This document shows, piece by piece, positions 2-25,245 of a stretch of 25,245 nt of DNA. A program made the position numbers and the translations under genes. The stretch's first letter is position 1. The number at the start of each line of letters is the position of its first letter. Below the pieces are notes generated by a model. That model had not been told where the DNA came from. It ran no database searches and worked only from the letters and a program-made list of their open reading frames with translations. The DNA comes from a virus. The stretch spans positions 1 through 25,245 of the IMG/VR virus record IMGVR_UViG_3300035162_000571. One strand, 5' to 3'.

Positions 2-529
2 GGTGCAACTATGACCTTAGATATTCTACAGAAAGGTTCAACAAACAAATTTCTTGGTGATATATGGGCAGATAACTACACAGGTTATTTCTCATTTATA
101 GGTGATACAAATACCTTCAATATGTCTACAGACGAAACAAATGCAACTGGTGCTGATGGTTCTAATGTAAACGTACAGGTGACTGGCAATACAAACACAA
201 TGACTCTTAATCATGCTATGACTGCACTAGCAGCTAACTTAGATTTAGATTGGACAATACAAGGTTCAGGCAACACCATAACTTCATCTATAGATGTAGA
301 TGGTGCTACTAATTTTATGGATATTGATGGTTCAGATAACACAGTAACCTATGATGGAGATGGATATGCTGGAGGTTATTTCTACCTAGATCATACTGGT
401 AGCACAAGGACATTTAACATAGATCAGGAGTCTACATCAGATAATGACTGGCTTAAAATTACATCTGTTGGCTCTAGCGGTACTGTCTGTGTTACTCAGT
501 CAGACGCAACGACTTCATTCGTCTGTTGA
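2..529 (+). CDS. Curlin-like repeat protein, 5' end outside window
   Basis: The reading frame is open to the left edge, so the ATG at 11 is probably internal and the N-terminus is missing. The visible part is rich in Gly, Asn, Asp and Thr and repeats a short unit of the form hydrophobic-x-G-x-x-N-T-hydrophobic (for example FIGDTNTF, VTGNTNTM, IQGSGNTI, IDGSDNTV), spaced about 20 to 30 residues apart. This is the pattern of curlin repeats, which stack as a beta-solenoid in CsgA and CsgB. It ends in two Cys-containing turns (TVCV and FVC at the very end). The next gene starts inside its 3' end in another frame, so the two are co-translated. The role is unknown: a secreted amyloid-like fibre, an adhesin or a virion fibre are all possible. 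The repeat call is moderate; function is inference. Confidence 0.6.
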   Translation, partial: GATMTLDILQKGSTNKFLGDIWADNYTGYFSFIGDTNTFNMSTDETNATGADGSNVNVQVTGNTNTMTLNHAMTALAANLDLDWTIQGSGNTITSSIDVDGATNFMDIDGSDNTVTYDGDGYAGGYFYLDHTGSTRTFNIDQESTSDNDWLKITSVGSSGTVCVTQSDATTSFVC

Positions 530-1556
530 AATAGGTTCTATTTCAGAAGTTAGAGGTAACGCACAAGTCCTAAGAGACAAAGCTTACGGAGCTAAATTAC
601 AGTTTGATATACAGCAAATGGATGATGTTCGTACAGAATCGGGCAGAGTAGCCATAACTTTTCAAGATGAATCTACAGTTAAACTAACAGAACACTCCAA
701 GCTAGTTATAGACGAATACATATACGATCCTGACCCATCAAAATCAAAGATGGCATTAAAGTTTGCAAGTGGTACAGCACGTTTTATAACAGGCAAGTTT
801 AATAATAAAAGTAATATATCTATACGCACACCTACTGCGGATATAGCAATTAGAGGTACAGATTTTACTTGTACAGTAGATGAACTAGGTAGAAGTCTAG
901 TTATATTGTTGCCAGACGAAAATGGCATATCTAGTGGTGAAATTTTAGTATCTACAGCTATGGGTAGCGTTACATTAAATAAACCTTACCAAGCTACCAC
1001 AGTATCTGTATATGAAAACAATCCTACTAAACCTGTTACCTTAGACATATCTCTAGACCTAATTGATAATATGTTGATTGTTAATCCTCCACAAGAAGTA
1101 GAACAACAGATAGAAGAAACACAATCTAAAACAACAGTAGATTACTTAGAGTTTGATGATCTTGATATAGATTATCTTGCTGAAGATTTTTTAGATGCAG
1201 AAGCAGAGCTTGAATTTACTGAACTAGACATAAACTATTTAGATGTAAACTTTCTTGAAGACTTACTTAATGTCCTTGATGCACTAGCACTATCTAAAGA
1301 AGAAGATGCTCTTAAACAAGGTGGTGTTGGTATTCGTATAGCTGGTACAGAAATAGGACAAGATAAAGACACACAGATAACAACTATAATATCTGGACAA
1401 AACATAAGTTTAACTAGAACAGTTAATCAAAGTGCAAAATTAAATCTTAATGGTTCTGGTAGTTATACAGTAATACTTATACAAGATGGAGTATCTAATA
1501 CTGTTAAGGTTAATGGCGGTTCTTCAACAACAATAAAAATAACTCAAGGATCGTGA
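444..1556 (+). CDS. Secreted FecR-domain protein with curlin-like C-terminus
   Basis: 370 residues. Residues 1-26 look like a signal peptide (one Lys, then a Leu/Ala/Val core at 7-18), so the mature protein should be outside the cytoplasmic membrane. Residues about 30-145 match the FecR domain, including the typical TPTADIAIRGTDF stretch at 129-141. Residues 233-280 form a very acidic Leu/Asp segment with two imperfect copies of a LDI(D/N)YL unit. Residues about 330-370 return to Gly/Asn/Thr curlin-like strands (LNLNGSGSY, VKVNGGSST). FecR domains usually act in the periplasm in signalling across the membrane. The first 86 bases overlap the preceding gene out of frame; an AGGAG at 426-430 lies 13 bases before the ATG. 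The stop overlaps the GTG of the cyclase (GTGA), which indicates coupling and a shared job. Confidence 0.8.
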   Translation: MTGLKLHLLALAVLSVLLSQTQRLHSSVEIGSISEVRGNAQVLRDKAYGAKLQFDIQQMDDVRTESGRVAITFQDESTVKLTEHSKLVIDEYIYDPDPSKSKMALKFASGTARFITGKFNNKSNISIRTPTADIAIRGTDFTCTVDELGRSLVILLPDENGISSGEILVSTAMGSVTLNKPYQATTVSVYENNPTKPVTLDISLDLIDNMLIVNPPQEVEQQIEETQSKTTVDYLEFDDLDIDYLAEDFLDAEAELEFTELDINYLDVNFLEDLLNVLDALALSKEEDALKQGGVGIRIAGTEIGQDKDTQITTIISGQNISLTRTVNQSAKLNLNGSGSYTVILIQDGVSNTVKVNGGSSTTIKITQGS

Positions 1557-3319
1557 AAAAAGTATTATTAGTTTTACTTATAGTTCTATTACTTCCATTT
1601 GTTATGCAAGTTAATATTTTAGAAATATTAAAATTAAAAACATTTGATGCTTTAGTTCCTGACCAAGAACCTTCTGGATACTTCACAATACTTAATATTA
1701 CAGAAGATGATATAAGTAAAGAAGGCGGTTATCCATTACCAAGACAAAGGCTTGCAGAGGTGCAATCGCAGTTGATACAAAAGGGAGCTTTAGGTGTTGG
1801 CTGGGTAATCGCTTTTCCACAACCTGATAGATTTGGTGGGGATAAAGAGTTTGCAGAATCTTTATCTTATGCTCCTAGTGTTTTGGCAATGTTTGAAAAT
1901 AACAATCAATCATTTCCTCCTACAACAGGAACAGTAATATTAGGTGATGAACCACAGGGTATATCTGCACAGGGTGTTGTACAGAATATAGATATACTAA
2001 AACAAAACGCTAATCAAGGTATAGCAGTAGCTAGAACTGATGTAGATAGTTTAGTAAGACGTTTACCATTACTTTTAAAAACAAATGATGGATGGGTATC
2101 TGCATATGGAACAGAAGTATTAAAAATTTTAGTTGGTGCAGATACATATGTTATTAAATCTAATCCTAATGGAATAGAAGAAATAAGAGTTAGAGGTTTG
2201 CCTCCAGTTAAAACAGATAGTCTTGGTAGAAAGTGGTTAAGTTTTGTAGATACACCACAAACTAATTTACAAGAAATGGATGTTGAAGGAAGGTTTGTAT
2301 TTGTAGGTTTTACTGCTAAAGGAATAATGCCTCAAATAGCAGTACCAAATAACAAGTTACTTGAGCCTCACAAAATACAAGCTGCTTTAGCAGAGTCAAT
2401 CTTAATACAAGATAGTCCATATATACCTGATTATGCATTAGCCTTAGAAATAGTTATATTGATATCGCTGATAATGCTTACCTGGCTATTAATAAATATT
2501 TTTGGAATTACAACAGGAATTATAACAACCAGTTTTTTATTTTTATCTGTAAGTTTTTTTGGATACTATTTAATACAACAAGGACTTTTAATTGACGTTA
2601 CTTGGGCATTAATATCACAATTTATTACAGGCTCAACAGCATTTTATTTAAGATTTAGGGAACAATATAAACTTAGACAACAAATTAAAGGACAGTTTGG
2701 TAAATACCTTGATCCTAGAATGGTCAAAAAGCTACAAGATAATCCAGAACTTTGTCAGGTAAATGGTAAGCGTGTTGATTGTTCTATTATATTTACAGAC
2801 CTTAGAGGTTTTACTAGCCTATCAGAGTCAGTAGAACCTGAAATGGTAACGTACATAATGAATTCTGTATTAGATGTACAAGTACAAGCAGCTAATAAAT
2901 ATTTTGGTTGTACTGATAAGTTTATTGGAGATGCTGGTATGTTTCATTGGAATACAATTATTCCACAAGATAATCATCATAATCTTGCTTTACAGGCTGC
3001 AAAAGAAATAGAAAAGAATATTGACCAGTTAAACATTAAATTTGCAAAAGAAGACATACCTAAAGTTGCTATAGGAATAGGTGTAAATTCAGGAGTTTGC
3101 ATAGCTGGTAACTTTGGTGCAACAGATAGGTTTGCTTTTAGTCTTATTGGTGATCCTTGTAATGTAGCTGCTAGATTAGAATCAAGCACTAAGGTTGCTG
3201 GAGTAGGAGTTTTGATAGGCGAAGAAACTGCCAAATATAGTGATTTTAAGCTACAATTATTAGAACCTATAGAAGTTAAAGGTAAAGCTAAACCACTACA
3301 GGTTTATACATGGGCATAA
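1553..3319 (+). CDS. CHASE2-domain class III adenylate/guanylate cyclase
   Basis: 588 residues from a GTG start that overlaps the upstream stop. Layout: N-terminal membrane segment (4-20); extracytoplasmic CHASE2-type sensor (about 25-290); three membrane helices (about 296-318, 320-340, 345-366); cytoplasmic class III cyclase domain (about 400-588). The catalytic domain has both metal-binding Asp residues (D416 in IFTDLRGF, D460 in KFIGDAG), the purine-contacting Lys K456, and the transition-state pair N537 and R541 (CNVAARLE). The second purine-contacting position, seven residues before N537, is S530. Lys with Ser/Thr there is the class IIIb pattern and favours ATP over GTP. I therefore expect an active cAMP-forming enzyme that dimerises in the membrane and is driven by a periplasmic signal. 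The FecR protein encoded just upstream is the obvious candidate partner. A phage lysis/virion operon is an unexpected home for it. Confidence 0.9.
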   Translation: MKKVLLVLLIVLLLPFVMQVNILEILKLKTFDALVPDQEPSGYFTILNITEDDISKEGGYPLPRQRLAEVQSQLIQKGALGVGWVIAFPQPDRFGGDKEFAESLSYAPSVLAMFENNNQSFPPTTGTVILGDEPQGISAQGVVQNIDILKQNANQGIAVARTDVDSLVRRLPLLLKTNDGWVSAYGTEVLKILVGADTYVIKSNPNGIEEIRVRGLPPVKTDSLGRKWLSFVDTPQTNLQEMDVEGRFVFVGFTAKGIMPQIAVPNNKLLEPHKIQAALAESILIQDSPYIPDYALALEIVILISLIMLTWLLINIFGITTGIITTSFLFLSVSFFGYYLIQQGLLIDVTWALISQFITGSTAFYLRFREQYKLRQQIKGQFGKYLDPRMVKKLQDNPELCQVNGKRVDCSIIFTDLRGFTSLSESVEPEMVTYIMNSVLDVQVQAANKYFGCTDKFIGDAGMFHWNTIIPQDNHHNLALQAAKEIEKNIDQLNIKFAKEDIPKVAIGIGVNSGVCIAGNFGATDRFAFSLIGDPCNVAARLESSTKVAGVGVLIGEETAKYSDFKLQLLEPIEVKGKAKPLQVYTWA

Positions 3320-14210: not shown

Positions 14211-17200
14211 ATGCAAAAAGTTAATTTGCCTGATGGAAGAACATTAAAAATTCCTAATGATTTAGCCCCTGATAAAAGGGATGAGTTGGCTAATGCTGTT
14301 AAGGCAGAATATAACATTGATATTAATGAAGGTTCTCTAGGTGAATGGTTAATAGATAAACCTGTATCTACAGTTAGAGGATTATCACAAATGATACCTA
14401 CAGCAGCCAAAGGTTTAGCTGGTTTAGCATTAGGTAGTGATAGCGATATAGTTAAAGGTATATCTGACTATCAAAGATATGTAGCTACAGAATCACCATT
14501 AGCATCCGATCCTAAATACAGAGATACCTTTGGAACTAAGCTAGCTGAAGGAGCTGGTTCATTAATTGGTTTTGGTGGTGCTGCATTTGCAGGTAGAAAG
14601 CTTGCTGCACAAGGCATAGTAAGTGACAAGGTAGGTCGTTTTGGTGTTCCTGGTGCAATAGCTGTACCTATGGGTATGGGTGAACAAGTAGACCGACTAG
14701 AAGAGTCTAGAGCATTAGGCGAAACACCAGGTAGAGTTGCAGAAAAAGTAGCCATACTTACTGGTGGTGCTATAGGTATGAGTGAATTAGCACCTATAGA
14801 AAGATTGTTTAGAAGCATACCTAAAAGTGCTTTAAAAAATCCTACAGTACAAGAATTAATTTCTACAAGATTAAAATCAGCAGCAGCTACAGGTACTGCT
14901 GAAGCATTTCAAGAAATGACTGCTGGTATAGCACAAGATTTAACAGCAGTTGGTTTATATAGTGATGAGTTGTCTATAGGTGATAGTGCATTAGAAGAGT
15001 TTACTATTGGTGGTATTCTTGGTGCGAGTGCTGATTTGTTTGTAAATAGTTTAGCAAATAGAAGAAGTGTTAGTAGCCAACAATTAAAAGATGCAGAAGA
15101 AAGAGCTAGAGATAATAGAACAAATTTAGAATCAGAAGACAAATTTAATAAAGCTCAAGAACAAGGAACAGTAGAAGAGTTCCAACAACCTATAATAAAA
15201 GAAAAACCTGAAATACCAGTTCCTGCTGTTGTTGATGTATTACCACCAGACTTAGGTGTTATAGAGAATCCTGATGGGCAATTTGCAGTAGTTGATTACA
15301 CAAATCTAGAAAGCCCTGTAATTAGTACACACGCTGATGAAGTCACAGCTTTAAGGGCAAAGAATAAAGAACAAACTAATTACGAAAGAAAGAAACTACA
15401 AGTAGAAGTAGATAATGACGTTTACATTATGGGTATGCCTGATAGTGGATCAGCTAAAACTTTAGGAAGAACTATACTTGACCCTAACCTTACACAAATA
15501 AATTTATCTACATTAATAGGATTTGATTCTTCTTTATCAAAAGATTTAAAAAAAGAATTAAATAAAGAAAAAACATCAGCATATGCAGCTAATACAGTTA
15601 GTGAAATGCTTGAGAATAAAGTAGAAAAACTACAAAAGACTTCCAAGTATTTAGAAAGTAAAGGCTTAGAGTTAAAGAGTAGTTTCTCTATGCCAGATAT
15701 TAAAAAGGTTTTAAAACCTAAAGATTACAATGCCTTGTTAGAAAGTTTTGCTAATCATGCTTTTACTAAATCCGAAGAAGCAGGTGAAACTTCTATAAGA
15801 GAAGACAAAGATAAGGTAGATGTTTCTGTAAAAAACATTAAAGCTATTGCTGAAGCTAAAAATATAGAACTAGATTTCAACGACCCAGCAGTTCGTTATG
15901 CAGCCAAGCAATGGACAGGCTTTGAAGATATACCTAAAACTAGAAACAGAGGAGCAAAAGAACTTTTCTTAGCTAGAATACATTCTCTGCCTGCATTCAA
16001 TACAAAAAACAAATTTCCAGACTTTAGACCTAGAGCTTATACAGGTTTAGATATGGCAAACTTTACAGCAGCAGCACAAAATATAGAGTTTAATAAAGAT
16101 GATTTATTAGCTGCTGGACCTGAAGGTATAAGAAATAATAAAGAAGCGGTAGATCAATTTGTTAATGACTTAGTAGGTAGTGGTAGAGCAAGAAAAGTAG
16201 AAGGCAAAAACAAATACGAAATTACTGATGACTTTGAATATACAGTTGCTAGAAGACAAGAAGGATTTAATGAAACTCCAGATGAGTTTCGTGGCAGACT
16301 AGAAAGAGATAGGTCTTTAGGTAAAAATAAATTATCTGATGAAGCTATAACTAATTTAGTTACATCAGAAGAAGTAAGACAAGAAAAAGTATTACCACCT
16401 AAAGAACTAGAACCTAAGTTATTTAATTTTGCTGAAACAATACAAGAAGGTCGTACAAATAAATTTGCAAAAGAACTACAGAAAAAATTACAAGCAGTAG
16501 GATTAGGTGATACAGGTGTTGTAGTTAGCAATGATATTTTATCTACAACTACATTAGCAAAAACGGATGCTGGCGACATTATATTTGATCCAAGGGTAAC
16601 TAGACCAACCGCCAAAGAAGGTGCAGTAGAGGGCGAATATGACAGGAATACAGACATTATTTTCTTATCGCTCAATGCAGTTAATCCTGATGGCACTAGA
16701 ACAGACGAACAAATACTACAAAACTTAGATAGAGTTCTTGACCATGAAATGATTCATGCGTTTAGAGAAAAAGATTTAATAAGTGAAAAGGAATATCAAT
16801 ATTTAAGAGCAGAAGTTAAGCGTAAGAAAGTACCTACTGAATATGATTCTTCTAGCAAAAACGAAACTTTTTATACAAGAGCCAAAAGAATTAACTCAGG
16901 TACTGCGAATAATGCAATATCAAGAGGAGCTAGCAAAGAAAGAGTAGAAGAACTTTATATAGAAGAAGCCATAGCAGAAATGTTTAGAGCTAGAGAGTTC
17001 AAACCTGTGACACCTAAAACTCAAAGTATTTTAGATAAGATTATTGAGTTCTTTAAATCTATGGGTCAATCCATGCGTATATCAGGCTACAAAGACTCGT
17101 CTGAAATATTTGCTGATATTGAATCAGGCAAGATAGGAGCTAGAGAAAGAGGACAAGTAAGAACCTTGCGAGAGCTAGATAGAATATCTATGGCTAGAGA

Positions 17201-20200
17201 ACAAGGTATCGTTGGTGGATTAGGTATAACACCTACTACTGTTCCTGAAGATGTAGAAGAAGCGGCTGGAACAGAAACTAAAATAGATAATTCTGATATA
17301 CAAGCTGTAGAAAATGAATTTGGCAAAGGAGTTTTAATTACACCAGCTACATCTTTTAATGATGTCAAAGCTGATACAGACCCCATAACAGGTGTTGTCT
17401 TACCTTTAGGTGCTGCACAAAGAGGAGGCTCATATAATAAATGGGAATTAACTCCTGAACAATTTGAAGCAGATAGAAAAATAATTTTAGATAAATTTTA
17501 TAAACTTACTGGTCGTGGAAAAGAAGTTGAAAATATTAAAAGTATAGATGTATTAGAGTGGTTAGTTAAAAATGGACCAACAGAAGACTATAGAGTTATT
17601 GCTAATAGATTATTAGTACAACAAAAAAAATTAAAAAGAATAAATGGCATTGATGGGTATTTTGCAATTGTTAAACAAGGTGCACAAAGATTTGTAGGTA
17701 AAGGTAGAGATTTTGGTTGGCTTGGCGTTTCGTATCCTCCTTTTAGATCAGAGCAATATAATGAAGGTGTTAGTAAACCTTATGGAGATAGTAAGTTAGT
17801 ACAACAAGTATATTTGCGAGACAAGCCAGGTACTCAGTCTGATCCAGGTCAGAATGGTGTAAGTTTTGATACTATGTTGCACGAATTAGTGCATCAAACT
17901 ACACAAGCTGCTACTAATTTTTATGCAGGAGGTAGAGCAACAAAAGAGTCACAACAACTTGTTAAAGATTTAGAAGAAGTTAGAAGATTATTAATAAAAG
18001 AAATAGAAGAAAAAACAGGAATTACTGGTAGTCAAAATTATTATGGTTATATAAATGATGGAGCTGCTAGAAAATTATCAGAAAAATATGGTTCAGATGG
18101 TGCACAAAAAATAGTTTATGCAGCAGCACAGATACAAGAAACTTTAGCTGTTGGATTTACTAATAGATATGCACAAGATTTTATGGATAGTATTCCATAC
18201 AAAGGAACACAAAAAACTTTATGGGATAAATTTACTGAATCAATAAGAAAGTTATTAAGTATACCAGCTAAAAAAGATAGTTTATTTTCTGAGTTTTTAA
18301 GAATAAGCGGAAAACTTACAAAATTATCTAATGCACAATTAGAAGAAATAAAAAGAAATGACATATTTTTTGATACTGGTCCGCCATTGGTATCACCTAC
18401 TTTTTCACGGCAAAGCTTACAACAAGAACTGAGCAGTCTACAGACAGAACTATATAACGCAGAAAGTATAGAGTCTGCGGACAGTAGATATGTAAGTTCA
18501 GAAGTAGGTAATCGTAATGCTAAAAGAGTACAAGATATAAGAGATAAAATTGCACAAGTCAAAGAACAATTAACACAACCAGTTGTACCAGAACAGTTAC
18601 CTTTATTTTCTAGACAAGATAAAACACCTCCAGATTATTTAATACCTAAAAATATTCGTCTTGAGTTTGGTGATTTTGGAAAAATTTCTGACCACCTTGA
18701 CAATAGTAGAAATCCTGGAGATAGAACAAATCCAGGACAACTTAAAACTGACATACTTGAAGTGTTTGAAAAAAATCCTGCTTTATTAGAAAACAGTAAA
18801 GAATTTTTAAGCGAAAGATTTGGAGCAGGAACTTTAAAAAATTTAAGAAATAATATAATTGTATATAGAAATGTAAATATACCTGAAGGTGAAAACATAA
18901 TTAATTATGGACAATATGCGTTTGATGATTTTGCAAGTACAACTTTAGATCATAGACAAGCAATAGAAATAGGTCGTGATATTAATAGAAAAAATAAAAA
19001 TCTTTTACCTGAAATACTAAGATACGAAGTTCCTATAAGTAGCGTGAAAGGTTATATGCCTACACTTTTAGAATCAGTAAGAGAAGAATATCTTTCTAAA
19101 GAACTTGATGCTATCAATAGTAGCATAATTGATGAAAGAGAAGCAGAAGAAGCTTTTCAAGAAGCTGTTGCACTTTATGATTCTTATATTGATGAAGCAG
19201 AAGTTATAGCAGATATAAGAGATATTAAACCTACTTATCAATTTACACCTAAAAATCTTAGAACAGATAGAGAATCATCTATAACTAGAGATGTACCTTT
19301 ATTTTCTAGAGGTAGAAGATTTACAGGCGAAGCTAATACACAAGAAAAAATAGAATTACAAAAGGCTACAGAATTAGTCGAAGAGTTTACTAAAAAAACA
19401 CCAAGGGGTGAGATACCTGTATATAACTTAAATGCTTCTGATGTAGCTTTAAAGGCTGCTTATGATTATATAAATGATCCTAGTGCTCCAACTATTAATG
19501 AGCTACCTAATTACTCTAGGGTAGAAAGAGAAATACCTGAAGAACTACAAGGTGTAGTTAATAGAGGTGGATATGTTCAACCTAGAGCACCTTGGTATGA
19601 CAGATTAATAGATTCAGTTGCTGATCCTACAACTAATATTAAAAAGTTTTTTAAAGATACAAGACAAAACTATGTAGATAAATTAGATAAAGTAGAAAAA
19701 AAATTATTACAAGGAAGTGAAGAATTTGAAGAAGTAAGACTAATAAATAACATTGCTGATACTTCTGCTATAGCTGCTTTAAGATTTGCTGATAAATCTA
19801 GAGGTGTATTTCAAGGATTACTTACAAAAGGTTTTGCTACAGATACAGTTGACGGAGTTGACTCATTAACTAATGTACAAGATTTACAAATAGATACAGT
19901 ATATAACCCATATATTGATGGCAATACAGGAACTGGTGGACTATTACAAATTACAGCACCTTTATTCTCTGACCCATTAGTTGATCTTGAAGGTATATTT
20001 GGTACATATGCCAAACTTAAAAGAGTGCAACAATTTCAAAAAGATAATAGACAAGTTGAATCTCCTTTTACTCAACAAGATTTAGAATTTATTAATAATA
20101 TTGAAGCTAATTATCCTGTTGTTGTAGAGGTTTATAACAACTTTCAAAAATGGAATAATAAATTAGTAGATTTTGCAGAAGCAAAAGGTTTATTAAATTC

Positions 20201-22307
20201 AGAACAAGCTAATGAATGGAGAGAAAAATCAACTTACTATCCTTTCTATAGAGATATGGTTGAAGAAGAAGGTATTTCTGCACCAAGAATAGGTGGTGGT
20301 TCTTTACCTAATAATCCATTAAATATAAAACTTAAAGGTTCTGAAGCAGAAATAGATGTTAATCCATTAGAAGCTATAGCTAGAAATTCTTTATCTATAC
20401 TTACTGCCTCTATGAAAAATGATGGAGCTTTAAAATTAGTAAAAAGTTTAGAAGCTATGGGTGAAGCAGAACTACTAGCACCTAAACAAACTCAAGGTGC
20501 AAATACAATATTTGTTTTTGAAGATGGATTTAAAAAATATTATGACATTGCAGACCCTGAATTATTTCATGGCATAAGAGCATTAGGTGGTGCGGAAGTA
20601 GGTTTTATAACAAAAATACTAGCTATGCCTTCTACTATCCTAAGAGACACAGTTACTCGTGATCCTGGGTTTATAGCAGTAAACTTACTTAGAGATACAC
20701 TATCTGCAACTGTAACATCAGGTGTAAATTTATCTGCTGGAGAAGACGGCTTTACTCCAATGATAGATACCATGAAAAATATGTTTGCTGATATGTCAGA
20801 CTTAGAAAGATTTGGTGTTATTGGTGGTTATGATTTTGCCAATGATGAAGGTGATGTTGTTGATTACATGGCAAGAATAAGAAGACAGCAAGGTCTTACT
20901 TCTGATAATGGTATATCAGCACAAAATGCTTTTTATAAAATTTGGGATGGTCTTGGTGGACTAACAACAAAATCAGACGGAGCTACTCGTAAAGGGGTCT
21001 TTGATGCAGTATATAAACGCATGAAAGGTACTATAGACGAAAGAACAGGTGAGGTTTATACAGAAGCAGCAGCTTTATCTGAAGCAGCCTATCAATCTTT
21101 AGAAGTAATTAACTTTGGTCGTAGAGGACTATCACCAATGTTCAGAGTTGTAACGTCTGCTATACCTTTTTTGAACGCTAGAATTCAAGGTCTTGATCTA
21201 ATATACAGATCGTTTAGAGGTACTTACTCGGCACAAGATAAGTTGCAAGAAGGTGAAACTTTAGATGAACTAAAGAACAGAATATTTAGAAGGACTGCTA
21301 CGAGGGGTGGAATTATTGTAGCCTCCACTATGCTTTACTATCTATTAGTTAGTGACACAGAGGAATATAAAGAAGCCAAGAGAGAACTTAGAGATGACAA
21401 TTGGTTGATACCAACTCCATTTGATTACACATTAAAAATACCTATTCCTTTTGAGATTGGAATGATGTTTAAGGCTATCCCTGAAAGGTTCATAGACCTC
21501 GTTTTAGGGGAGAAAGTGCTTGGAGTTAAGGAATCGGTAGAGAAAGACCCTTTTGAGTCTATAAGAAGGCAAATAGGAACTTCTGCAAACATACCTTTCT
21601 TATCAGGTGACATCAGCATACAAGCAATAAAGCCTTTATTTGAAGCAGTAACTAACAGAAGTGCGTTTACTAATACAGAAATCGTACCCTACTACAAACT
21701 AAAAAGAGAGCCAGGATATCAATCCTCACCACAAACCAATGAGTTAGCTAGACTTATCGGTGAAGCTTTAAATATCTCGCCTACAAAGATTGAGTATGTA
21801 TTGAACGGATATTCAGGAACACTCGGAAGTTATGTGTTGGATATTGTAGATTCACTTACAAGAACTGCGACAGGTTCTCCATACATCCCAAATAATATTT
21901 TTAGTAATCCAACTAACTTCGCACAGTATCCACTAATTAAAAGACTAGTTGTAGATAATAAAAAAATGGGAGGGTTGCAACAACAGTTTTATGAACTGAG
22001 AGGTGAAGTAGATTCAGCCGTACAAACACTCAATAGTTTAAGAAAACAAAGACGTTTTGATGAACTCGGTGCTTACAAGTCTGACGTTAAAGGATTGATG
22101 AATGTGAAAGGCAGAGTTAGAGCAATGGAAAGATACTTGGCTAATTGGAGAAATAAAAGAGACAGGCTTATGCGTAGGACTGATATATCGGTTCTAGTTA
22201 AAGCAGAAATGCTTCAAGAACTAGAAGCAGAAAGAGACAGAAGACTAGCCTTCATTCCTGAGTTGAGGAAGAAAGCTAACGTGCCTATCCTCCAAGGAGG
22301 ACTCTAA
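14211..22307 (+). CDS. Giant polyvalent virion protein: two metallopeptidases, ART-like module, LPD38-like C-terminus
   Basis: 2698 residues. The start has little Shine-Dalgarno signal and lies one base after the previous stop, so re-initiation is likely. Order: a short N-terminal block (VNLPDGRTLKIP, 4-15); helical region with a Gly/Ala-rich hydrophobic segment (about 100-120); linker; unassigned domains (about 345-740); metallopeptidase 1 (HEMIH at 845-849); metallopeptidase 2 (HELVH at 1224-1228); coiled coil (1402-1460); ADP-ribosyltransferase-like module (about 1480-1650); then a long conserved C-terminal part (about 1700-2698) with NFGRRGLSP and PFLNARIQG, which resembles the LPD38 domain of phage polyvalent proteins. 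FSR motifs mark three borders. By analogy with T7 gp16 it is probably ejected with the DNA, delivering enzymes to the host. It is about twice the length of T7 gp16. The gene is certain; the domain functions are predictions. Confidence 0.85.
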   Translation: MQKVNLPDGRTLKIPNDLAPDKRDELANAVKAEYNIDINEGSLGEWLIDKPVSTVRGLSQMIPTAAKGLAGLALGSDSDIVKGISDYQRYVATESPLASDPKYRDTFGTKLAEGAGSLIGFGGAAFAGRKLAAQGIVSDKVGRFGVPGAIAVPMGMGEQVDRLEESRALGETPGRVAEKVAILTGGAIGMSELAPIERLFRSIPKSALKNPTVQELISTRLKSAAATGTAEAFQEMTAGIAQDLTAVGLYSDELSIGDSALEEFTIGGILGASADLFVNSLANRRSVSSQQLKDAEERARDNRTNLESEDKFNKAQEQGTVEEFQQPIIKEKPEIPVPAVVDVLPPDLGVIENPDGQFAVVDYTNLESPVISTHADEVTALRAKNKEQTNYERKKLQVEVDNDVYIMGMPDSGSAKTLGRTILDPNLTQINLSTLIGFDSSLSKDLKKELNKEKTSAYAANTVSEMLENKVEKLQKTSKYLESKGLELKSSFSMPDIKKVLKPKDYNALLESFANHAFTKSEEAGETSIREDKDKVDVSVKNIKAIAEAKNIELDFNDPAVRYAAKQWTGFEDIPKTRNRGAKELFLARIHSLPAFNTKNKFPDFRPRAYTGLDMANFTAAAQNIEFNKDDLLAAGPEGIRNNKEAVDQFVNDLVGSGRARKVEGKNKYEITDDFEYTVARRQEGFNETPDEFRGRLERDRSLGKNKLSDEAITNLVTSEEVRQEKVLPPKELEPKLFNFAETIQEGRTNKFAKELQKKLQAVGLGDTGVVVSNDILSTTTLAKTDAGDIIFDPRVTRPTAKEGAVEGEYDRNTDIIFLSLNAVNPDGTRTDEQILQNLDRVLDHEMIHAFREKDLISEKEYQYLRAEVKRKKVPTEYDSSSKNETFYTRAKRINSGTANNAISRGASKERVEELYIEEAIAEMFRAREFKPVTPKTQSILDKIIEFFKSMGQSMRISGYKDSSEIFADIESGKIGARERGQVRTLRELDRISMAREQGIVGGLGITPTTVPEDVEEAAGTETKIDNSDIQAVENEFGKGVLITPATSFNDVKADTDPITGVVLPLGAAQRGGSYNKWELTPEQFEADRKIILDKFYKLTGRGKEVENIKSIDVLEWLVKNGPTEDYRVIANRLLVQQKKLKRINGIDGYFAIVKQGAQRFVGKGRDFGWLGVSYPPFRSEQYNEGVSKPYGDSKLVQQVYLRDKPGTQSDPGQNGVSFDTMLHELVHQTTQAATNFYAGGRATKESQQLVKDLEEVRRLLIKEIEEKTGITGSQNYYGYINDGAARKLSEKYGSDGAQKIVYAAAQIQETLAVGFTNRYAQDFMDSIPYKGTQKTLWDKFTESIRKLLSIPAKKDSLFSEFLRISGKLTKLSNAQLEEIKRNDIFFDTGPPLVSPTFSRQSLQQELSSLQTELYNAESIESADSRYVSSEVGNRNAKRVQDIRDKIAQVKEQLTQPVVPEQLPLFSRQDKTPPDYLIPKNIRLEFGDFGKISDHLDNSRNPGDRTNPGQLKTDILEVFEKNPALLENSKEFLSERFGAGTLKNLRNNIIVYRNVNIPEGENIINYGQYAFDDFASTTLDHRQAIEIGRDINRKNKNLLPEILRYEVPISSVKGYMPTLLESVREEYLSKELDAINSSIIDEREAEEAFQEAVALYDSYIDEAEVIADIRDIKPTYQFTPKNLRTDRESSITRDVPLFSRGRRFTGEANTQEKIELQKATELVEEFTKKTPRGEIPVYNLNASDVALKAAYDYINDPSAPTINELPNYSRVEREIPEELQGVVNRGGYVQPRAPWYDRLIDSVADPTTNIKKFFKDTRQNYVDKLDKVEKKLLQGSEEFEEVRLINNIADTSAIAALRFADKSRGVFQGLLTKGFATDTVDGVDSLTNVQDLQIDTVYNPYIDGNTGTGGLLQITAPLFSDPLVDLEGIFGTYAKLKRVQQFQKDNRQVESPFTQQDLEFINNIEANYPVVVEVYNNFQKWNNKLVDFAEAKGLLNSEQANEWREKSTYYPFYRDMVEEEGISAPRIGGGSLPNNPLNIKLKGSEAEIDVNPLEAIARNSLSILTASMKNDGALKLVKSLEAMGEAELLAPKQTQGANTIFVFEDGFKKYYDIADPELFHGIRALGGAEVGFITKILAMPSTILRDTVTRDPGFIAVNLLRDTLSATVTSGVNLSAGEDGFTPMIDTMKNMFADMSDLERFGVIGGYDFANDEGDVVDYMARIRRQQGLTSDNGISAQNAFYKIWDGLGGLTTKSDGATRKGVFDAVYKRMKGTIDERTGEVYTEAAALSEAAYQSLEVINFGRRGLSPMFRVVTSAIPFLNARIQGLDLIYRSFRGTYSAQDKLQEGETLDELKNRIFRRTATRGGIIVASTMLYYLLVSDTEEYKEAKRELRDDNWLIPTPFDYTLKIPIPFEIGMMFKAIPERFIDLVLGEKVLGVKESVEKDPFESIRRQIGTSANIPFLSGDISIQAIKPLFEAVTNRSAFTNTEIVPYYKLKREPGYQSSPQTNELARLIGEALNISPTKIEYVLNGYSGTLGSYVLDIVDSLTRTATGSPYIPNNIFSNPTNFAQYPLIKRLVVDNKKMGGLQQQFYELRGEVDSAVQTLNSLRKQRRFDELGAYKSDVKGLMNVKGRVRAMERYLANWRNKRDRLMRRTDISVLVKAEMLQELEAERDRRLAFIPELRKKANVPILQGGL
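16431..17100 (+). other. Metallopeptidase module 1 within the giant protein
   Basis: Residues about 741-963. Strands with IIFDPRV and a typical IIFLSLNAV stretch precede the zinc motif HEMIH at 845-849 (16743-16757). A second acidic helix, YIEEAIAEMF with E918 and E919 at 16962-16967, supplies the likely third zinc ligand, as in gluzincins. An amphipathic tail (ILDKIIEFFKSMG) follows. All residues needed for zinc peptidase activity appear present. Confidence 0.75.
17325..18398 (+). other. Metallopeptidase module 2 within the giant protein
   Basis: Residues about 1039-1396. The zinc motif HELVH is at 1224-1228 (17880-17894); the likely third ligand is E1310 in QETLAVGF (18138-18140). It ends with LWDKFTESIRKLL, the same kind of tail as module 1, so the two are probably distant homologues. 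The pre-catalytic part differs: module 2 has an added N-terminal region with GVSYPPFRSEQY. The DNA is much more AT-rich than the flanks, consistent with separate acquisition. Confidence 0.75.
18402..19313 (+). repeat. Three FSR motifs at module borders of the giant protein
   Basis: The motif (P)(T/LP)(L)FSR(Q/G) occurs at residues 1398-1401 (18402-18413), 1466-1469 (18606-18617) and 1698-1701 (19302-19313). The copies mark the end of metallopeptidase 2, the start of the ADP-ribosyltransferase-like module and the start of the C-terminal region. Copies two and three share PLFSR. Confidence 0.75.
18645..19150 (+). other. Possible ADP-ribosyltransferase-like module
   Basis: Residues about 1479-1646. 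The candidate R-S-E triad is R1553 in IIVYRNV (18867-18869), S1576 in DFASTT (18936-18938) and E1626 in VREEYL (19086-19088). Order and spacing (23 and 50 residues) fit the R-S-E class of mono-ADP-ribosyltransferases. The ExE signature is weak here because the residue two before E1626 is Arg. Treat it as a hypothesis for structure prediction. Confidence 0.4.
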
Positions 22308-22628: not shown

Positions 22629-22767
22629 TATCAGACTCCTCACATTTTTTACATAACTCATCAGAAAATGCTACTGTTAAATTTTCAAATATTGTCGGCA
22701 TAGCCATAGTAATACTCTTTGGTTTTTCCATGTCACACCCACAAACATCACATATATATCTAGTCAT
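22615..22767 (-). CDS. 50-residue putative zinc-binding protein
   Basis: Too short for usual ORF cut-offs but well supported: it starts at an ATG overlapping the RusA-like stop by eight bases and ends 14 bases inside the next gene, so it fills the gap exactly. Cys residues at 6, 9 and 11 (CDVCGC) and at 39 and 42 (CKKC) form two Cys pairs that could hold one zinc ion as a zinc ribbon. The middle is a hydrophobic strand-like stretch (ITMAMPTIFENLTVAF). The best guess is a small DNA-, RNA- or protein-binding factor of the recombination module. Confidence 0.7.
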   Translation of the reverse strand: MTRYICDVCGCDMEKPKSITMAMPTIFENLTVAFSDELCKKCEESDNDVS

Positions 22768-23161
22768 CCCATACCTCTTTTATTGTTAATCTACAACGAG
22801 GGAACTCTTTATCCACTCCCCCATAAACATAATAAATTTCTTTAATCTGTTTGGAACTATCATCCTCCAGGATTTCAGCTTTGACCAAAGCATCACAAGT
22901 AAACTTATCTATAATAGAACAGGGGTTACTTACATCTACTCTTCTATTACTTTTTGCATAGTAAACGTACTCTAACGTAACAGGATTCTTAAACTTAGGT
23001 TTTAAAGACCACTCATTTAATTCTGCTACCAAATTTTCAGAGTAAATTCTTTTGGCACTAGATAAAATTCTGTAGTGTGCGTTTCTATAATTGTTAAGAT
23101 TAAGAATAAACTTCTTATTTTTAGAATAATAAACTTCCAAAGGAAGGATCATAGTTACCAT
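22760..23161 (-). CDS. rusA: RusA-like Holliday junction resolvase
   Basis: 133 residues. RusA-type enzymes are dimeric, Mg-dependent endonucleases that cut four-way junctions. The family signature is visible: NNYRNAHYR in the N-terminal part (basic, DNA-contacting), then SNRRVDVSN with D76, IIDKFTCDALVKAEIL with D85 and D90, and EDDSSKQIKEI with D100 and D101. These form the acidic active-site cluster. The length matches E. coli RusA (about 120 residues). The start at 23161 has an AGG six bases upstream; the Met at 4 is an alternative. Its neighbours ERF, SSB-like and Ref-like proteins put it in a phage recombination/replication module. The stretch just upstream carries hairpin element 1. 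Confidence 0.85.
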   Translation of the reverse strand: MVTMILPLEVYYSKNKKFILNLNNYRNAHYRILSSAKRIYSENLVAELNEWSLKPKFKNPVTLEYVYYAKSNRRVDVSNPCSIIDKFTCDALVKAEILEDDSSKQIKEIYYVYGGVDKEFPRCRLTIKEVWDD

Positions 23162-23227: not shown

Positions 23228-23398
23228 TTACTTTTCAATAAATACCAAAAATCTTTCATCATCTATCTTCACTATTGCTACAACTTCTTTACCCTTAAAC
23301 TTTCTTTCCGCACCTGTAAAAGATTTAGCCTTCACTTCTGTAGTCTCAATTACAAACTGTTCATCTGTGCTATCAAACGTAATTGATTTAAGCTTCAT
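23228..23398 (-). CDS. 56-residue hypothetical protein
   Basis: Short gene that fills the gap between the Ref-like nuclease gene and the RusA-like gene. The ATG at 23398 lies 11 bases inside the 3' end of the nuclease gene and has AAGGA about eight bases upstream. The product is small, basic and strand-rich (MKLKSITFDS, EQFVIETTEVKAKSF, EVVAIVKIDDERFLVFIEK), possibly a single beta-barrel or beta-sheet fold. No family was recognised. The spacing and clean frame make it a real gene. Confidence 0.65.
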   Translation of the reverse strand: MKLKSITFDSTDEQFVIETTEVKAKSFTGAERKFKGKEVVAIVKIDDERFLVFIEK

Positions 23399-23690
23399 CT
23401 ATTATTCCTTTAACTTGATCTAATAATTCTTGTTCTGTTCCGTATCTCTTCTCAAACTCTTTCTTCCAAGGATGCCTACTCACCCACAAGCCATTCATTG
23501 TTCCTTCTCGGTGATGCTGAAAGCACAAAGGCAAAACCAGGAAATGTGCGTTTACCTTAGTCTTGCCTTGAGTATGGTGAATCTCACTCGGTACAAAGTC
23601 GTTACCCTGATTCTTACAGACAATACATCCTATCTGACTGACTCTATTCATGTGTCTCTTTTCATCTGCTGTAGGGTTTCTACCTTTCAC
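23388..23690 (-). CDS. Ref-like HNH nuclease (RecA-dependent nuclease family)
   Basis: 100 residues from a GTG start that overlaps the upstream stop (GTGA). The motif set is that of phage P1 Ref and relatives: PTADEKRHMNRV at the N-terminus, C22 and C25 (GCIVC), H38-H39 (EIHHT), H49, C56 and H59-H60 (LPLCFQHHREG), then FEKRYGTEQELL. The Cys residues should bind structural zinc and the His residues form the HNH metal site. P1 Ref cuts DNA within RecA-bound displacement loops. It is a good partner for the ERF and RusA-like proteins. An in-frame ATG at codon 14 is possible, but the family motif begins before it. Confidence 0.85.
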   Translation of the reverse strand: MKGRNPTADEKRHMNRVSQIGCIVCKNQGNDFVPSEIHHTQGKTKVNAHFLVLPLCFQHHREGTMNGLWVSRHPWKKEFEKRYGTEQELLDQVKGIIDEA

Positions 23691-24022
23691 GCACCATACC
23701 TAGATTGTTCTTTCCTAGCAGAGACTTGCTTAGTCCTCCACTCCTCAAACCCTATCTCTAATCCTTTCAAGTTTACTTTGAGAGCAGACAATCCACCTTT
23801 AGCCACTCCAACTCTAAGCCTAGCTTCATATAACTCGTCTGAAGCTTCTGCGTAAGTTTCTTGTGCTGATGTTGTTTTGATTCCCTCTGCCAAAGCTTTT
23901 AACTTTAACTGTGCTTGTAGTTTTTTTACTTGTGCTTCACGCTTGTAAACTTCGTACTCGGTTTTTTCTATTGGAGAAGCAAGTTCTCTAATTTGATGCA
24001 TCCAACTTTCTTGTTGTTCCAT
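23687..24022 (-). CDS. Small coiled-coil phage protein
   Basis: 111 residues, almost entirely helical and highly charged, with heptad-like spacing (YEVYKREAQVKKLQAQLKLK and ELYEARLRVGVAKGGLSAL) and a conserved-looking C-terminal FEEWRTKQVSARKEQSR. GGGAGAG at 24029-24035 is the ribosome binding site. It is joined to the Ref-like nuclease by a GTGA overlap. I do not recognise the family. The position suggests an accessory factor of the nuclease or of single-strand DNA handling. Confidence 0.7.
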   Translation of the reverse strand: MEQQESWMHQIRELASPIEKTEYEVYKREAQVKKLQAQLKLKALAEGIKTTSAQETYAEASDELYEARLRVGVAKGGLSALKVNLKGLEIGFEEWRTKQVSARKEQSRYGA

Positions 24023-24530: not shown

Positions 24531-24851
24531 TTAAAATGGGATGTCATCATCTGATAACTCAGGAGTCTCTTCAACTACAGGAGTTGTAGGCTCTTGTACT
24601 TGTTGTTGTTGAGGTATATCCATTCTTGTATAGAAGTAGTCACGACCATTCTTAGAGGTGTTATTCCATAAGGCTAACCTCACTTCCACTCCTCCCTCTT
24701 TTCCTACCTCTCCGTTCTTCATCTTCTCTACTATTTGCTTTAATAGAGGTTTAGTAATTTCTACTTTACCATTGAAGTCAGGTTGCTTACCTTCCTTCCT
24801 ATCGTTAGTAAATATCGCTCCACTACATTGGGGTCTTTCTTCAAATGCCAT
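24531..24851 (-). CDS. Small single-strand DNA-binding-like protein with SSB-type tail
   Basis: 106 residues from the ATG at 24851 (GGAGG nine bases upstream, one base after the ERF stop); an in-frame ATG at 24881 inside the ERF gene is less likely. A compact strand-rich domain (GAIFTNDRK, PDFNGKVEIT, GVEVRLALWNN, GRDYFYTRMDIP) is followed by a Gln/Pro/Thr/Glu linker and the terminal DDDIPF. That tip is the same as in bacterial SSB, where it recruits RecO, PriA, RecG and other partners. The body is shorter than a canonical SSB OB domain and looks somewhat like DUF736-type small proteins. A phage single-strand binding protein acting with ERF is the best call. Direct DNA binding is inferred. 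Confidence 0.65.
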   Translation of the reverse strand: MAFEERPQCSGAIFTNDRKEGKQPDFNGKVEITKPLLKQIVEKMKNGEVGKEGGVEVRLALWNNTSKNGRDYFYTRMDIPQQQQVQEPTTPVVEETPELSDDDIPF

Positions 24852-24852
24852 T

Positions 24853-25245
24853 TTATTTATCCTCCACAGATTGATTTTCAATTTTTAAACTATCGGCTAA
24901 TTGTTTGGCTAGATTGTCTAACCTTTCTTTTTGTTCAGGGAATCTTTCTTTCAAGATGCTTATAGGTTCAGCATTTGTTTTGTAATGATTTTTAACATCA
25001 TCTGAAGTCTCAGCTAAAGGTGAGATAGTTTTTATAAAACCTTCAACAAAAGCATTCGCCCACGCTTCATCTTTATCATCCTGGATTTCCTTTACAGGTT
25101 CAGGTGCTTTCCTAGGAACAGGCTTCTTGCCTACTTCCTTTTCAGCTTGATTTCCGTCATCATCTTCGTCAGCACCAACACCACAAGCAAGTGATAAAGA
25201 ATACCTACGAGCATAAGTTAAGGCACTTCCAAACCCTTGAGCAGT
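24853..25245 (-). CDS. erf: ERF-family single-strand annealing recombinase, 5' end outside window
   Basis: The last 130 codons are present; the start lies beyond the right edge. The first visible residues hold the ERF signature (TAQGFGSALTYARRYSLSL followed by GADEDDDGN). ERF proteins form rings on single-stranded DNA and anneal complementary strands, for example in P22 genome circularisation. After the signature comes a Lys/Pro-rich linker (about 39-55) and a variable C-terminal helical region. The stop is followed after one base by the ATG of the SSB-like gene, so the two are coupled. The right-hand family signature makes this call strong despite truncation. Confidence 0.9.
   Translation of the reverse strand, partial: TAQGFGSALTYARRYSLSLACGVGADEDDDGNQAEKEVGKKPVPRKAPEPVKEIQDDKDEAWANAFVEGFIKTISPLAETSDDVKNHYKTNAEPISILKERFPEQKERLDNLAKQLADSLKIENQSVEDK

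Follow-up and report, generated by a model that had tools for sequence, protein, structure and literature searches.

A small SSB-like phage protein ends in a conserved bacterial-type SSB tip beside annealases whose cores appear exchangeable

What does a very small phage protein do with the exact C-terminal tip of bacterial SSB? The question is raised by a virus record of 25,245 bases, analysed here over its whole length as the window, in which a minus-strand ORF (24531-24851) encodes P0001, 106 residues from an ATG start to a TAA stop. A sequence-only reading had proposed that this protein ends in the bacterial tip DDDIPF and may act as phage SSB for ERF. The translation bears out the ending: it closes with ETPELSDDDIPF, then the stop, and its last eight residues are LSDDDIPF. 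On the minus strand, the body comprises residues 1-80 (24612-24851) and the tail residues 81-106 (24534-24611; net charge -7), with the conserved tip ELSDDDIPF as residues 98-106 (24534-24560). Directly upstream, the window breaks off within the gene of an ERF-type single-strand annealing protein (24853-25245, minus strand); the 130 C-terminal residues still encoded match PF04404 (E 5.1e-8) and PHROG 2324 (E 2.3e-16) and include a 72-residue C-terminal domain (24856-25071, minus strand). The ERF frame stops at 24855-24853 and the ATG of P0001 follows one base later on the same strand, with GGAGG inside the end of the ERF gene (24861-24865, minus strand) as its likely ribosome-binding site. Downstream on the same strand are the genes of a Ref-like RecA-dependent nuclease (23388-23690; PF16786, E 1.6e-20) and a RusA-like Holliday junction resolvase (22760-23161; PHROG 1682, E 2.4e-31), and from their sequences the ERF, P0001, nuclease and resolvase genes can be read as a recombination module. 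The ATG of the next gene stands 16 bases beyond the P0001 stop, after GGAAGG. Elsewhere in the window, on the plus strand, 444-3319 encodes a FecR protein (PF04773, E 3.4e-13) and then a CHASE2-adenylate/guanylate cyclase (PF05226, E 4.3e-24; PF00211, E 4.7e-15), a pair that, on a virus contig, is either unusual as cargo or marks a junction with host DNA, and 14211-22307 encodes a 2698-residue large polyvalent protein (LPD38, E 8.4e-30) with two HExxH motifs recognised by eye.

P0001 matched PHROG 18154, labelled 'single strand DNA binding protein', with residues 9-106 on profile positions 6-105 of 105 (E 2.3e-6), and PHROG 7364 at E 0.016 only; among 25 aligned relatives, P0001 included, 22 matched PHROG 18154 and 17 matched PHROG 7364 at E 0.1 or better. 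P0001 had no Pfam or NCBIfam match and none to PF00436 at E 10, and PF00436 matched none of 70 family members at E 0.1. By these profiles P0001 is a divergent member of a known, uncharacterised phage family, the function label of which is itself inferred, and is not a canonical SSB (PF00436). This phage SSB family, into which P0001 falls by its profile match, is what was already known; a link to DUF736, a fold with no clear match and an annealase core swap behind a constant tip go beyond routine annotation.

Relatives were gathered from virus contigs by core patterns and tblastn, in rounds comprising all 80 found and the best 80 of 86, and an HMM scan of the loci gathered yielded 143 distinct proteins, which fall into 47 clusters at 60% identity: one from the window, ten from named phage records, two from MAG sequence and the remaining 130 from other virus contigs. 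What we conclude about the tip applies to loci collected in this way, and very divergent members are therefore missing. P0001 itself had no tblastn match in the phage collection; more typical relatives used as queries matched 18 and 25 phage records. The 18 records matched by L051 annotate the gene as single-strand DNA-binding protein (nine), hypothetical (seven) or DNA-binding (one), and one leaves it unannotated. A search of the genome collection with A1 returned no relative, and one with A6 returned two loci (one Neomarinimicrobiota MAG).

Absence of the tip from relatives was one half of what the sequence-only reading had named as its refutation, and against this set the reading passed that test. 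A terminal Phe with an acid within the preceding seven residues was found in 130 of the 143 proteins, 118 of which end in PF; the others end in Trp then an acid (eight), PF plus an acid (one), another aromatic with an acid before it (one) or something else (three). By cluster majority, 40 of the 47 clusters are Phe-plus-acid, three Trp-plus-acid, one PF plus an acid and three other; the three other endings are those of L031, L233 and L242, the last of which is a true DUF736 protein (PF05284, E 4e-36). As background we took 237 neighbouring ORFs at 23 loci chosen to represent the first 49 relatives; eight of these ORFs end in Phe-plus-acid and two in PF. The Fisher p of ~2e-33 for clusters against these ORFs serves as a guide only, because clusters and ORFs were assembled by different procedures and the background ORFs are unverified as genes. 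When the seeds of the HMM were trimmed of their last 22 residues, the scan returned as many hits, proteins and clusters as before; therefore, the tip does not select the family set.

Within the window's own clade (n=12: the window, L001-L004, L008, L009 and L081-L085), ELSDDDIPF ends all 12 SSBs. None of its nine codons varies in amino acid and seven vary synonymously, and in the same sequences 11 of the 17 linker codons are variable or gapped. Since the last nine residues are invariant, their codons vary synonymously and the linker is variable, we read the tip as being under purifying selection. A frame overlapping the tip, with an ATG inside it, runs into the next gene in 11 of the 12 sequences, and a 5′ overlap of that gene with the tip is possible. 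Such an overlap does not explain the tip and was ruled out as its cause, because the overlapping-frame residues vary (for example TISHF, MTSHF and MISPS) with the tip the same in all 12, and because in L002 this frame meets a stop and the tip is nonetheless kept. The tip is thus real and conserved, and by this pattern of variation it looks functional.

The reading we prefer, with a probability of about 0.72, is that P0001 is a small phage SSB. Its body of ~80 residues would coat single-stranded phage DNA, and its flexible acidic tail would present the Phe-ended tip, docking partner proteins on the coated DNA. The first partner would be the neighbouring annealase, ERF here and Sak in sister phages, engaged through its 72-residue C-terminal domain, so that the tip would load the annealase onto SSB-coated DNA; other phage or host proteins that read SSB tips may also be used. 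DNA binding by P0001, docking to the C-terminal domain and any host partner are what we infer.

The gene neighbourhood across the family is consistent with such a partnership in a part of the loci. Of 49 distinct relatives, 47 have an upstream ORF that ends at most 200 bases away. These 47 ORFs were sorted by eye into two groups and then all scanned (19, and 28 together with one window ORF), and an annealase lay directly upstream in 18 of the 47 distinct loci, ten ERF-like and eight Sak-like, with one further RecE-like ORF; the ERF/Sak split was derived from the counts and from seven loci scanned singly (three ERF-like and four Sak-like). PF04404 matched 11 of the 49 relatives' records and PF00436 none of the 49, many of these records being fragments and none known to be 90% complete. 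The proposal of a phage SSB for ERF thus gains support from the PHROG 18154 match, the annealase upstream in 18 of 47 loci, the lack of a PF00436 match in 49 of 49 records and the conserved tip. For the other 29 of the 47 loci, the scans identified no annealase as the direct upstream neighbour; the group of 28 was judged on the best 25 of 31 families, and a rare further annealase may be among them. Ten annotated phage regions gave a similarly mixed picture: the gene follows Erf in C75C1 and Mae-JY35, Sak in C72C1 and an erf-exonuclease pair in ctXG6705, stands beside DNA polymerase in Bhz9, K300, BUCT555 and Bm1 (in Bm1 with a tRNA gene between), and has neither annealase nor DNA polymerase annotated next to it in PA_03 and S-CBS1. 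Because 29 of 47 loci have no identified annealase and other phages pair the gene with DNA polymerase or with neither, an annealase cannot be the sole partner. DNA polymerase A, sought as another partner of the tip, exceeded the cut-off in none of 27 records, with one weak, broken match in the record of L052.

Other genes recur near the family. In 16 of the 47 loci (L005, L030, L036, L038, L041, L042, L045-L047, L051, L058, L061, L064, L066, L068 and L069), a gene of ~105-115 codons with the loose end motif IEVWRTxQAxxR, recognised by eye, lies upstream of the SSB-like gene; a similar gene stands in the window between P0001 and the Ref-like nuclease (23687-24022, minus strand), with no PHROG match at E 0.001. 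In L073 and L077, phages Bhz9 and Bm1, the SSB-family gene is near DNA polymerase and an annotated 2-aminooxy adenylosuccinate synthetase gene, a possible sign of diaminopurine DNA.

In the window's clade, an annealase with its own C-terminal domain lies directly upstream of the SSB in all 12 sequences, and here the annealase core appears to have been exchanged. The SSBs of L004, L008 and L009 are 98% identical. The annealase core is of the ERF type in L008 and L009 (L008 typed within the group scan and by PF04404) but of the Sak type in L004 (PHROG 659, E 5.8e-46, typed singly), where PF04404 has no match, and the 72-residue C-terminal domain of L004 is 99% identical to that of L008 and 93% to that of L009. 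The DNA of L004 and L009 showed high identity on both sides of a stretch of roughly 1 kb in which identity drops and whose one end falls within the annealase gene; aligning the two proteins places this edge in the annealase linker, and a further indel lies downstream of the SSB. Because its Sak core is joined to a C-terminal domain and an SSB near-identical to those of the ERF-core L008, L004 looks like a natural recombinant in which an ERF core was exchanged for a Sak core at the linker. The contig may instead be an assembly chimera, against which five further, separate contigs (L081-L085) join the same Sak core (92-93% identical to that of L004 in L081-L084, the four compared) to C-terminal domains related to the ERF-linked ones; these domains (52-68%) and the SSBs (61-63%) are their own, and all five SSBs end in ELSDDDIPF.

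The apparent swap supports modularity of the annealase, as judged from sequence. That L004 kept domain and SSB together could reflect physical linkage alone, and tight co-adaptation of domain and SSB was dropped, because L002 pairs an SSB 98% identical to that of L001 with a divergent annealase, only 54% identical in the core and 56% in the C-terminal domain. Profile comparisons of the domains gave 75% for the window's clade against L017/L018/L021 and 33% for the L017 group against L049, less than 7% for every other pair and less than 1% for every pair with the N-terminal control, so that a C-terminal domain common to the family's annealases is only partly supported. The domain in the clade, found on the Sak-type annealases of relatives as well as on the ERF of the window and proposed here as the dock of the tip, holds an invariant L, K, F, Q, K, R, L and D in one stretch, which could supply a basic pocket. 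A 596-residue protein of L004 (468-2258, minus strand), primase-helicase-like by eye, ends in DDYDWEF, another acidic-aromatic tip in the same phage, and the same pocket may read both tips.

The partners could also lie chiefly in the host: P0001 would then be a phage SSB whose tip mainly recruits or sequesters host readers of the SSB tip (RecO, PriA or Pol III chi, for example), not the annealase. We hold this to be possible, with the odds against it. The six residues are those of the E. coli SSB tip as given in PMC5928155, an exact match that leaves room for host partners, and the tip is present in members with no annealase identified directly upstream. However, the tip varies across the family (DAPF, TELPF, DFDF, PWE and QWD), and the clade constantly places an annealase with its own C-terminal domain upstream. 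A phage partner, namely that domain, is at least as likely as host SSB partners.

The predicted structure of the body bears on whether P0001 coats DNA at all. Two AlphaFold runs, on 25 and 70 sequences, agreed on strands at 9-15 and 26-30, a helix at 34-45 and strands at 58-65 and 71-78, with residues after 78 as a low-confidence tail without structure in both models; mean pLDDT was 71.8 and 70.9, and residues 11-80 fell in blocks of 73-85. Between its second and third predicted strands, P0001 has an insertion that bears a helix and is missing from many members. The check for an OB fold, suggested by the sequence-only reading, thus returned a beta-beta-alpha-beta-beta body in both models, and no OB fold emerged from them. 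Among PDB structures, the best Foldseek match had E 0.038 (first model only) with no row standing out, the best VIA matches, to ribosomal protein chains, reached Z 3.7 with either model (rmsd 5.1-5.4 over 58-61 aligned residues), and OB-fold SSBs were absent among the matches listed for these two mediocre models. Because the models are mediocre and no solved structure clearly matched, an OB fold is not demonstrated, and the body may yet have one. Searches of solved-structure sequences with profiles A2, A7, A8 and A9, or with P0001 as a single sequence, gave nothing or weak rows only. In the comparison with viral models, each run gave ten rows better than E 0.001, all uncharacterised or unnamed, followed by the model of the Vibrio phage JSF9 single-stranded DNA-binding protein (E 0.021 and 0.032).

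The failure to recover an OB fold from the two models, together with a body net charge of only +2, would suit a protein that does not itself coat DNA but acts as an adaptor or inhibitor, a decoy whose SSB tag competes with host SSB for partners. This is improbable, since the core is conserved through 70 aligned members (W62 and G69 invariant; P24, G28 and S66 nearly so), half of the phage records matched by L051 annotate a single-strand DNA-binding protein, and the gene is often beside an annealase or DNA polymerase. As for coincidence, DDDIPF is only six residues long, but the probability of a given C-terminus reading so is ~2.8e-8 at the window's composition (~1.3e-6 over the 45 listed ORFs, calculated post hoc), and the family survey, with the tip kept in all 12 sequences of the clade and in 130 of 143 proteins, and synonymous-only variation in the clade, has already refuted it.

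The family further proved to be a remote relative of Pfam DUF736 (PF05284), by homology at the level of the family profiles. Of the 70 members, 39 matched PF05284 with an E-value of at most 0.1 (best 2.3e-5), L051 scoring 22.1 bits against a curated cut-off of 22.1; P0001 itself had no match. In hhalign, the family aligned with seven DUF736 proteins over 52 columns with a probability of 96.5% (E 8.4e-10); an unrelated control profile reached 0.1% with DUF736. The common core lies around PDF, AAWKxTS, G and YLSV; unlike the phage family, all seven aligned DUF736 proteins carry further N- and C-terminal parts and no SSB-like tip, and L251, a DUF736-like plasmid protein outside the A9 alignment, is longer and also without the tip. 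The DUF736 protein of L242 matched 1144 of 72,556 plasmid records; 795 of the 1144 are typed as conjugative, and 37 of its best 40 plasmid matches are annotated DUF736. We suggest, as a tentative and on balance unlikely extension, that the phage family belongs with plasmid DUF736 in a single superfamily whose single-strand DNA-binding domains are very small and differ in fold from the OB type, that the phage branch gained the SSB-like tip independently, and that the tip is a constant plug allowing ERF and Sak cores to be exchanged while the C-terminal docking domain stays shared.

Should the tip act as we propose, very small phage proteins with no detectable sequence relation to bacterial SSB share its docking tag, which would make the tag useful for predicting phage SSBs and their partners from metagenomes. 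The DUF736 link suggests a testable function for the uncharacterised protein found in those 1144 plasmid records; if the superfamily reading is true, conjugative plasmids would carry in DUF736 an SSB-type protein, so far overlooked, that serves their transfer or replication. In the ERF-to-Sak core swap, nature would already have run an experiment on how annealases and SSBs come together. Literature searches found no experiment on this phage SSB-like family.

Among known systems, PHROG 18154 and 7364 are nearest, with a full-length match to the former and the same kind of tip in members, P0001 differing by its divergence and its helix-bearing insertion. Bacterial SSB (PF00436) shares the last six residues, as in E. 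coli, and the layout of body, flexible linker and acidic tip, whereas P0001 has no profile match, a shorter body and no OB fold recovered; the canonical SSB domain is larger than a body of ~80 residues. T7-type phage SSBs (gp2.5 and Enc34 ORF6/DUF2815) also have an acidic C-terminal tail (PMC5686142); among solved-structure sequences, the P0001 family had no profile match at E 10. Further reports describe a Hna defence system triggered by a phage SSB termed gp2.5-like (PMC13381803), a requirement of staphylococcal Sak and Sak4 for the cognate Ssb (PMC5499656), erf genes beside ssb in almost 80% of Firmicutes phages and a C-terminal domain common to different annealase classes and remotely similar to that of Redbeta (PMC8093625), and binding of the Redbeta C-terminal domain (residues 193-261) to E. 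coli SSB, for which K253 is needed (PMC8303780). In the HK620 system, binding of Sak4 to SSB-covered DNA requires the last six residues of the SSB (NDYPPF; PMC5928155). The HK620 protein is larger than P0001 (21.3 kDa monomer), but it too is a phage SSB beside an annealing recombinase with an acidic tail ending in PF (PMC5928155), and by this analogy HK620 SSB with Sak4 is the closest demonstrated case for the tip-dependent annealase loading that P0001 may perform.
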